Assembly: GCA_030651285.1 (NCBI GenBank)
Contig: JAUSCN010000020.1
Span: 54,106-118,105, forward strand
Direction of reading: 5' to 3'
DNA length: 64,000 bases
Source of the DNA: a bacterium
Lineage (GTDB): Bacteria > Patescibacteriota > Minisyncoccia > Phycocordibacterales > Phycocordibacteraceae
Part shown: positions 14,393 through 16,844 of the stretch, one piece after another
How positions within the stretch are numbered: the first letter of the stretch is position 1
Layout of the letters: each line of letters opens with the position of its first letter
Position numbers and translations under genes: made by a program
Notes under the pieces: generated by a model
The model's input: only the letters and a program-made list of their open reading frames with translations
Told to the model about the DNA's origin: nothing
Database searches by the model: none

Positions 14393-15472
14393 TTATTTTT
14401 TACTAAAAGCTGATCGAACCTGGTCTATTGCTTTTGTTTGCGTAGCTGAGAGCGAAGAGACTCCAAATGACTGAGCAAGCGAAGATATAGCTGATGATTG
14501 CGTGCCAGTATAATTACTAGACACAGAGTTTCTAGTTGTATTCTGCAGTTGATTTTGATTGGTACTCGAATTCGAATACACTTGCGAACCAAAATAATGA
14601 TCCATCACGTCAAGAACTGCTGGCGCAACTTGTAAGAATGTTCTTTCTGCCACATCTTTCGTTGCCCTACCAGCTCCAAAAAGTGCCGTATCAAGACCAA
14701 TTTTGAATCCGGTCTGGAATTTCTCTTGTTTATTAAATACTTCTGGATAATCCCAAAAGACGGTCTTTGCTTCATAGAGATTTATTAGGGTTTGAGCTAT
14801 GGAATATATACCGAGTATTGGTAAGAGAGGGATGGCTTCTCCCGTTGGATCGCTATATCGTAATGGGTTATTACGAGCATATCCATATGCATTGAGAAGC
14901 TGTGGATCGGAAAGAAATTCTTGCGAAATACGTCGATTTCCTTCTTGTTGGATTTGCCCACCAATTGTCTCTGAACGGAAAGATGCATTGGGTAAGGTGG
15001 CGATTCTTGTCAGAATTTCTGTTAGTTTCGGTGATCCAAGAGCGAGAAACACCGGATCCTGTGAAAGGAACTGTCCTCTACTCCCCTCATAATAACGCGC
15101 ATTCAGGTATGAGAGCGAGGTGTCGGTATCAAAGTATTGGCCGATGTATTGGCGCTGTTCAGTACCGGTGCCTTGATTGATTCGTTTTGAACCATAGGGA
15201 TAGTAGTCGAGGGTTTGAGCGAGGATGCCAGAGGAGTCCGTGGTGACCTGAGTGGAGCCGAGGTGATCGCCGTGGTCGTATTTTGTGCTTGTTGCCATGC
15301 CATTCCCTTCGATGGTCGCGATGAGCGAATCGCCAGCGAAGATGTGGAGCGTGGTTGTAGCACCCTGGAGGGAGTAGTACTTGTCGGGGTAGTAGGTGGT
15401 GGCTACCCAACCGAGCGCTTCGCTATCGCCTGCGCCGTAAGTAATGCTGTCTCCCCAGATACCAATTTCCAT
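14393..15472 (-). CDS. RHS repeat-associated core domain protein with chimeric N-terminus
   Basis: KYDHGDHLGSTQVTTDSSGILAQTLDYYPYGS...YIGQYFDTDTSLSYLNARYYEGSRGQFLSQDP; starts MEIGIWGDSITYGAGD. Confidence 0.85.
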   Translation of the reverse strand: MEIGIWGDSITYGAGDSEALGWVATTYYPDKYYSLQGATTTLHIFAGDSLIATIEGNGMATSTKYDHGDHLGSTQVTTDSSGILAQTLDYYPYGSKRINQGTGTEQRQYIGQYFDTDTSLSYLNARYYEGSRGQFLSQDPVFLALGSPKLTEILTRIATLPNASFRSETIGGQIQQEGNRRISQEFLSDPQLLNAYGYARNNPLRYSDPTGEAIPLLPILGIYSIAQTLINLYEAKTVFWDYPEVFNKQEKFQTGFKIGLDTALFGAGRATKDVAERTFLQVAPAVLDVMDHYFGSQVYSNSSTNQNQLQNTTRNSVSSNYTGTQSSAISSLAQSFGVSSLSATQTKAIDQVRSAFSKK

Positions 15473-15479
15473 AATGAGT

Positions 15480-15821
15480 TTATTGTAACTTGCTACCAAT
15501 CTCTACGCTCGCCTTGGCGGGATTGATGAGCACCCATCCAATTCCAGCTGTGTTCTTGAACCCGAGAGTGAGGACTTCTGATTCGAATGGTCCGATTCTC
15601 TTCTTCGGGAAATTCACGACACAGCACACCAGCATCCCTAGCAGCTCTTCTTTTGTATGCGCACCGACTGCTTGCACGCTTGATACTTTGACGCCGATCT
15701 CCTTGCCGAAATCTATCTTCAGTTTAAATGCAGGATTCCGCGCCTCGGGGAAATCCTGCACTTCGAGTATCTTCCCGACTCGAATATCTACCTTCTCAAA
15801 ATCGTCGTATGAAATAGTCAT
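15480..15821 (-). CDS. csaA: tRNA-binding domain protein (CsaA-like)
   Basis: DDFEKVDIRVGKILEVQDFPEARNPAFKLKIDFG, VVNFPKKRIGPFESEVLTLG. Confidence 0.85.
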   Translation of the reverse strand: MTISYDDFEKVDIRVGKILEVQDFPEARNPAFKLKIDFGKEIGVKVSSVQAVGAHTKEELLGMLVCCVVNFPKKRIGPFESEVLTLGFKNTAGIGWVLINPAKASVEIGSKLQ

Positions 15822-16201: not shown

Positions 16202-16411
16202 GCGCTAAGTATAGCTTGAGTCTGGTATTCCTGCCCCCGTCTAGCTCGACCAGGACGGGAACTCGAGAACCGGTGTGGTCAGTGAGCTTCGCCAGTTCGA
16301 TTCCAGCGCCCCTGCTCAAAATCAGGGAGGGACGACCGTGATTGCAACACGAAACTATGGCTAATACGAGAATCGGAATCGAACTGGGAATATGGTGTAT
16401 CTGCTGAAAAC

Positions 16412-16437
16412 GCAAAAACCACTTTCGTGGTTTTTGC
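16412..16437. terminator. Bidirectional terminator-like hairpin
   Basis: GCAAAAACCACTTTCGTGGTTTTTGC. Confidence 0.8.
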
Positions 16438-16519
16438 TCGCTTTTCTGGCTGAACAGGGGCGCCGGTACAGTACCGACTTTGACGGGGAACGGTACTGGT
16501 TCCTGGCGTCACAACCGTG

Positions 16520-16803
16520 TTGCGGGGGCCGGAATTGAACCGGCGTCTGGAGGTTATGCTTACCACTACAATTTTCATTGCCCCTTCGGTTTGTGGTCTG
16601 GACTATGCCTTCACCCCGCGAGGGGTGTCTACCGTCTAGTCTCTACACCTTCCTTTCTCCAAAAAGAGAAAGGCTTGGCTCGGTATTGCCTTTCGCTTTC
16701 GCAAGAGGGTTCCGCCGAATTTGGCAGATGATCTTATGCGCAATTACTCGCGCACACGCCCGTATTATTCAAGCCTCCCGAGGTACCTCTCCTCTACCCC
16801 GCA
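16520..16803 (-). tRNA. tRNA-fMet(CAU), initiator-like, interrupted by a group I intron
   Basis: Exons: TGCGGGG-TA-GAGG-AGAGGTA-CCTC-G-GGAGG-CT | CAT-AA-CCTCC-AGAC-GCCGG-TTCAATT-CCGGC-CCCCGCA-A; all four stems pair. Confidence 0.85.
16559..16771 (-). other. Group I intron (~213 nt) in the tRNA anticodon loop
   Basis: Core motifs on minus strand: AAATTCGGCGGAACCC, GGCAATACCGAGCCAAGCC (P4/P6), GTGTAGAGACTAGACGGTAGACACC (P7), AAGGCATAGTCCAGACC; ends in G. Confidence 0.88.
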
Positions 16804-16844
16804 CAGAAAGTATACACAAAAAAATATGTGGGGCAACACCTTAC

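Follow-up and report, generated by a model that had tools for sequence, protein, structure and literature searches.

The question raised by this locus is whether an initiator tRNA gene of a CPR bacterium, split within its anticodon loop, carries a true group I intron and, if so, whether the host has any other gene with which to begin translation. On the minus strand, from 16803 to 16520 of the window (the whole 64,000-nt stretch of Phycocordibacteraceae DNA that was analysed), the sequence reads as an initiator tRNA(CAU) gene in two exons with a 213-nt insert (Table 1). The 5' exon, TGCGGGGTAGAGGAGAGGTACCTCGGGAGGCT, has GGAGGCT as its last letters; the intron begins with TGAATAATAC and ends with GTGGTAAG; and the 3' exon starts with CATAACCTCCAGAC (its start is also given as CATAACCTCC) and finishes with CCCCGCAA, CCA not being encoded. 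Joined, the exons form a complete cloverleaf with the anticodon loop C32 U33 C34 A35 U36 A37 A38, and we set the splice point between U33 and C34 because this placement yields the 7-nt loop and the terminal G together. A preliminary description had proposed just such an insertion into the anticodon loop CU-CAU-AA, about 213 nt long and ending in G; the length is exactly 213 nt, and the terminal G before CATAA is invariant across all aligned introns.

Table 1. Coordinates of the split initiator tRNA gene, the helices of its intron and neighbouring features (positions in the window)
Feature	Position	Strand	Details
3' exon, tRNA-fMet	16520..16558	-	Anticodon CAU, A37 A38, stem, 4-nt variable loop, T arm, acceptor 3' strand, A73; from sequence, ARAGORN with introns, relatives' loci
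Group I intron	16559..16771	-	213 nt, between U33 and C34, terminal G
P9, inner hairpin closed on GAAA loop	16562..16597	-	Covariation helices
P7 3' strand UAGUC	16601..16605	-	Covariation helix
P8 hairpin	16612..16627	-	97.9% paired; C-G to U-A changes
P3 3' strand	16628..16633	-	Covariation helix
P7 5' strand GACUA, guanosine site	16637..16641	-	Pairs with 16601-16605; invariant in 18 introns
P4 (outer strands) and P5 region	16680..16718	-	P5 has GAAA loop; covariation helices
P3 5' strand	16723..16728	-	Pairs with 16628-16633; 98.1% paired
P2 hairpin	16735..16756	-	Both-side changes at 7/7 pairs
P1 3' strand, internal guide sequence CGGGC	16758..16762	-	Covariation helix
P1 5' strand	16770..16774	-	Exon G31 C32 U33 and intron U1 G2; pairs with 16758-16762; U33.G wobble at splice site; 97.8% of cells paired
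5' exon, tRNA-fMet(CAU)	16772..16803	-	Acceptor 5' strand, D arm, anticodon stem 5' strand, C32 U33; from sequence, ARAGORN with introns, identical exon in intact relatives
Promoter-like site TTGCCC-16-TATACT	16809..16836	-	Just upstream of tRNA; 9/12 consensus matches, consensus match only
gatA-like ORF, 475 aa	17450..18877	-	Marks orthologous locus; name from sequence resemblance

The insert was recognised as a group I intron by a family model, by a gene finder and by its pattern of covariation. Against Rfam Intron_gpI (RF00028), the search that the preliminary description had proposed, it scored 51.6 bits (E 3.4e-10), barely above the gathering score of 50, in a match that runs from 16780 to 16566 and spans the full model (1-253); the only other RNA-family match of Rfam in the window was one tRNA-Ser. 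With introns allowed, ARAGORN recovered the gene and its 213-nt intron, and in its default run it missed the tRNA-fMet gene; in intron mode the splice point was misplaced, which gave the incorrect anticodon label 'tga'. The P7 (GACUA/UAGUC), P4/P6 and 3' core motifs quoted in the preliminary description are all present, and the intron appears, judged by motif only, to resemble the IC3 tRNA introns. Its longest open stretches are 41 codons in the sense and about 70 in the antisense direction, none of them endonuclease-like by eye, in agreement with the earlier claim that no endonuclease ORF is present. The predicted RNA fold, calculated over a range one base off the intron boundaries, reaches -74.3 kcal/mol (z -4.39), and none of 200 shuffles was as low.

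For the covariation analysis, we compared 18 introns, those of 17 of the 18 genomes of the host family with an intron at this site (hereafter site A; all but G103) and that of G353 (L166), a member of another family of the same order with an intron at the same site. The consensus from RNAalifold was set aside, P3 and P4 being mispaired because the core is a pseudoknot, and the structure P1-P9 was therefore named by hand, written from the window's sequence with the alignment not fitted to it. Across the 18 introns, 93.4% of the cells are paired, a level reached in none of 500 shuffles and set against 33-42% when the partner strand is slid, a control over which the structure is somewhat favoured because it was written from the window's sequence. 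Both sides have changed in 27 of the 60 pairs (0/500 shuffles reach this value), most of the compensatory changes sitting in P2, the P6 extension, P8 and the inner hairpin of P9. Chance is excluded as a source of the intron signal. The 5' splice site pair in P1 is U33.G in 17 of the introns and C-G in one, and the window's own intron has two nonstandard pairs, one in the P1 extension and one at the edge of P4. In some relatives (L091, L111, L134, L151, L085), C33 replaces the near-universal U33 of tRNA-fMet; G059 is among these C33 relatives, and its intron pairs C33 with G in P1.

The interrupted gene also has uninterrupted counterparts in the same place. An intact tRNA-fMet gene in a relative (G031) matches the window's 5' exon fully, and its 3' exon and downstream flank are 84.7% identical to the window over 275 nt; the two matches are contiguous in the relative and exactly 213 nt apart in the window, a clean empty site. 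A second clean empty site is provided by G019, with the intron, and G047, with none, which are 81% identical over 1.4 kb upstream. In 79 of the 82 family genomes in which both genes could be located, tRNA-fMet lies within 4 kb of gatA, and the alleles therefore occupy one orthologous locus. Our family sample comprised 106 genomes, 84 of them with a recognisable fMet 5' exon: 47 have an intact gene, 17 an intron at site A (33/34), 19 an intron at site B (36/37) and one, G103, is mixed. Counting this last genome and the window's own, an intron at exactly U33|C34 is found in 18 of the 106. Site B holds a different group I intron, inserted at U36|A37, 3 nt from site A (for example, in loci L089, L098, L103 and L126), with the guide sequence GTG, complementary to CAU, and with P4 and J6/7 sequences that likewise differ from those at site A. 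Lengths are 205-302 nt at site A and 243-341 nt at site B, and among the family loci no fMet gene with both introns was seen. The orthologous locus beside gatA comes in three alternative alleles, and the window's intron is one of them.

How these alleles came to be scattered is harder to say than what they are. On a GatA tree of 81 genomes, a quick, single-gene tree from a gene adjacent to the tRNA and thus a source of rough change counts, the three states require 31 changes, with a mean of 31.7 for shuffled labels, and site A alone requires 15, nine of them forced by well-supported branches. Close pairs in unlike states (G019/G047, G032/G066 and G005/G012) are independent of the deep branches. 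At the same time, of the 17 family site-A introns tested, 16 fall into one clade (100/98), and that of G005 lies outside; the introns are therefore mostly of one source, with a patchy distribution. The single clade is what would be expected if the introns were old and had been lost, repeatedly and precisely, rather than transferred between species, and so is the scarcity of homing machinery, no endonuclease ORF having been seen within the family introns at these lengths, and a PDDEXK_5 protein, the family of I-Ssp6803I, being present in only one of the 106 genomes and unlinked to fMet. Repeated loss is possible on these grounds, although we consider it doubtful: the number of changes is like that of shuffled labels, close relatives differ in state, the intron of G005 falls outside the main clade, and sites A and B, only 3 nt apart, would both need to be old.

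Our tentative alternative is that in this CPR genus the one initiator tRNA gene switches quickly between the empty state and either intron at a fixed locus, the introns spreading between species without an endonuclease of their own. They could do so by reverse splicing, through a trans-acting endonuclease of another family or by natural transformation, and the site-A and site-B introns would be mutually exclusive because each destroys the other's target. An endonuclease of the I-Ssp6803I family acting in trans was dropped as a candidate, being absent from the host genome; the sole PDDEXK_5 protein of the family (in G028) lies upstream of tRNA-Ser. Whichever route was taken, the initiator tRNA gene of this group seems to gain and lose two different introns very often. 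Turnover of alleles at an essential single-copy gene is, we think, the part worth following, and a three-state locus in about 80 sampled species of one genus lends itself naturally to measuring how introns are gained and lost in such a gene.

Group I introns at this one fixed site of tRNA-fMet recur in many bacterial phyla. A scan of GTDB species genomes for the site-A 3' splice junction in a CAU tRNA returned at least 119 stretches, of which 80 were fetched; among the matches listed, 77 of the 80 have the motif of the P7 3' strand upstream at a suitable spacing, and a 5' exon ending at U33 could be located in about 60. By record title, at least 14 non-CPR phyla and several CPR groups have a site-A group I intron, the phyla among the matches listed including Cyanobacteriota, Bacteroidota, Omnitrophota, Nitrospirota, Rhodothermota, Acidobacteriota, Chloroflexota, Planctomycetota and others, with counts that are indicative, many of the records being metagenome bins. 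The junction is uncommon across the Patescibacteria as a whole, where 9 of 384 genomes have it, compared with 18 of 106 in the host family; the phylum-wide pattern allowed variable loops of 4 and 5 nt (4 nt in the host family, 5 nt in most bacteria). In several phyla, and in a CPR contig (L174), site-A introns of 640-695 nt encode a protein of about 150 aa; one such protein matches PDB 2ost, which we take to be I-Ssp6803I, with an E value of 3.9e-61, and that of the CPR contig matches Pfam PDDEXK_5 (6e-45). The tRNA-fMet introns encoding this PD-(D/E)XK homing endonuclease thus share the insertion site of the window's intron, whereas the latter has no ORF of the I-Ssp6803I type, and no PDDEXK_5 match was found in the host genome. 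A Yanofskybacteria contig (L172) has a 789-nt site-A intron with an antisense open frame of 173 codons, for which no Pfam match was found.

An intron of this kind is a known type. According to PMC8450103 and PMC1995217, which cite Biniszkiewicz 1994 and Paquin 1997 as the primary reports, group I introns in the tRNA-fMet of cyanobacteria (Synechocystis PCC 6803, Gloeobacter and others) have been known since 1994, and they self-splice, as these papers and PMC3984707 relate. The tRNA is the same as in the window, and Nostoc, Trichodesmium, Oscillatoria and other cyanobacterial loci (L171, L175, L181, L195, L196, L202 and others) have the identical U33|C34 site and the same core motifs, a comparison drawn on the loci fetched here. 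The Synechocystis intron is 655 nt long and has an endonuclease ORF (PMC1995217), whereas that of the window has 213 nt and a CPR host; in the intron tree, those of the family form a clade of their own, well apart from the cyanobacterial ones, with the same site and core. In being small group I introns in a CAU anticodon loop without an endonuclease, the Azoarcus-type tRNA-Ile(CAU) intron and the site-B introns of the family are also like the window's. Introns in the same kind of host are on record as well: Lui et al. 2021 report group I introns in some tRNAs of circular CPR genomes (PMC8172020), and CPR rRNA introns are well described (PMC11270868); neither the tRNA-fMet site nor its allele turnover is described in the sections of these two that were consulted, and in the open-licence literature we found no description of the fMet site in CPR or of a three-allele locus. 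The special standing claimed for the locus is thus only partly upheld, the intron being a compact, endonuclease-free CPR case at a site that bears introns in many phyla, in hosts whose tRNA introns are already published; it is the allele turnover that is less expected. Two further observations concern other introns of the group. On contig C13 of the host genome, a sub-threshold group I match (L047:398-674, 25.7 bits) sits within an insertion in the 3' part of the 23S rRNA gene. In relatives (L049, L051, L053, L054, L067, L071, L075 and others), tRNA-Asn(GUU) genes are interrupted between U35 and U36 by group I introns, some of which contain an upstream HNH-like ORF, and several of these genes are misassigned by ARAGORN to Thr, Leu or Asp.

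Does the host have another initiator gene? Its genome (G000; 855 kb in 30 contigs, 96.7% complete, estimated contamination 5%) contains 45 tRNAs by RF00005, and neither this model nor ARAGORN with introns allowed found an intact second tRNA-fMet among them, an observation that would have counted against the preliminary description. The fMet 5' exon pattern occurs once in the genome, as it does in all but one of the 17 other site-A genomes. The exception, G103, has two copies on two contigs, each with its own gatA, so two strains in one bin are the simplest reading. Since no intact copy was found, formyl-methionine initiation probably depends on splicing of the intron, as judged from copy number in an incomplete assembly. 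It is highly improbable that the intron is inactive and the gene a dying copy, with an intact tRNA-fMet in the unassembled part of the genome; at 96.7% completeness and in 30 contigs a second copy could exist, but both exons and the tRNA body are intact and conserved relative to the uninterrupted genes of relatives, the catalytic core shows no less conservation than in other species, and the interrupted copy is the only one in 16 other site-A genomes, among them one rated 100% complete (G003). The preliminary description had all initiation depend on splicing if this copy were the only one; we keep the dependence as probable, given the recurrence of a sole interrupted copy, and soften the 'all' in view of the incompleteness and contamination of the assembly. 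In some CPR species, the decoding of start codons thus probably rests on a ribozyme. Intron-split fMet genes are overlooked by default ARAGORN and the Rfam tRNA model, and genomes with such genes seem to be without an initiator tRNA because of this; the tRNAscan-SE 2.0 paper (PMC8450103) reports 36 bacterial genomes in which group I introns make fMet or Ile2 appear to be missing.

The identity of the tRNA appears typical of an initiator, if not perfect: the purine 11-pyrimidine 24 pair is present as A11-U24 in the D stem, and the loop CUCAUAA fits, as does the remainder of the tRNA body. Of the other hallmarks, the lack of a Watson-Crick pair at position 1-72 is not seen, as U1 and A72 can pair, and A29-U41, G30-C40 and G31-C39 make up the anticodon stem at 29-31:39-41, where three G-C pairs are usual. 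Weak U-A pairs at 1-72 are tolerated by the initiators of E. coli. Most relatives have A1 or C1 opposite A72, with the same tRNA body in intact genes, and the A29-U41 stem is a lineage trait because it recurs in most intact fMet genes of the host family. An elongator-type Met(CAU) and a tRNA-Ile(UAU) sit elsewhere in the host genome, and hence no other tRNA could be the initiator. That the gene is instead a tRNA-Ile2(CAU) or an elongator Met, as the CAU anticodon common to all three, the U1-A72 pair and A29-U41 might suggest, is extremely improbable and was rejected on account of the D-stem pair and the genome's other tRNAs, the loop, the whole body and the intact relatives also being in favour of the initiator identity first proposed.

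Taken together, the best explanation, to which we give a probability of about 0.93, is that a group I intron of the type known from cyanobacterial tRNA-fMet, without an ORF, sits at U33|C34 of what is apparently the host's only initiator tRNA gene and is presumably spliced. It is preferred because of the full-model Rfam match, the recovery by ARAGORN in intron mode, the covariation with an invariant P7 and terminal G, the clean empty sites, the intact and conserved exons, the failure to find an intact fMet gene, and the presence of the same site and core in many phyla, including cyanobacteria, whose introns self-splice. The gene would be transcribed as one precursor. Comparative evidence from relatives shows that the intron adopts the fold P1-P9, with the end of the 5' exon held by the U33.G wobble of P1. 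Following the chemistry established for such introns, guanosine in the P7 site would attack after U33, and the freed 5' exon would then attack after the terminal G, joining the exons into the loop CUCAUAA; with no intact copy at hand, formyl-methionine initiation would need this reaction. The preliminary description was right in what it observed and essentially right in how it interpreted it.

Two neighbours of the gene deserve mention. Directly 3' of tRNA-fMet, the stretch 16410-16519 on the minus strand (GGTTGTGACGCCAGGAACCAGTACCG ... GGTACTGTACCG, followed by a terminator-like hairpin) recurs in conserved form in many relatives irrespective of intron state; it had no Rfam match and could be a small structured RNA. 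It is single copy in the host genome, lies about 200 nt more distant from tRNA-fMet in G021 and is present in two copies at loci L050 and L136. Farther downstream, the ORF at 14393-15499 on the minus strand has, judged by eye, an RHS-repeat-like core, LSYLNARYYEGSRGQFLSQDP.
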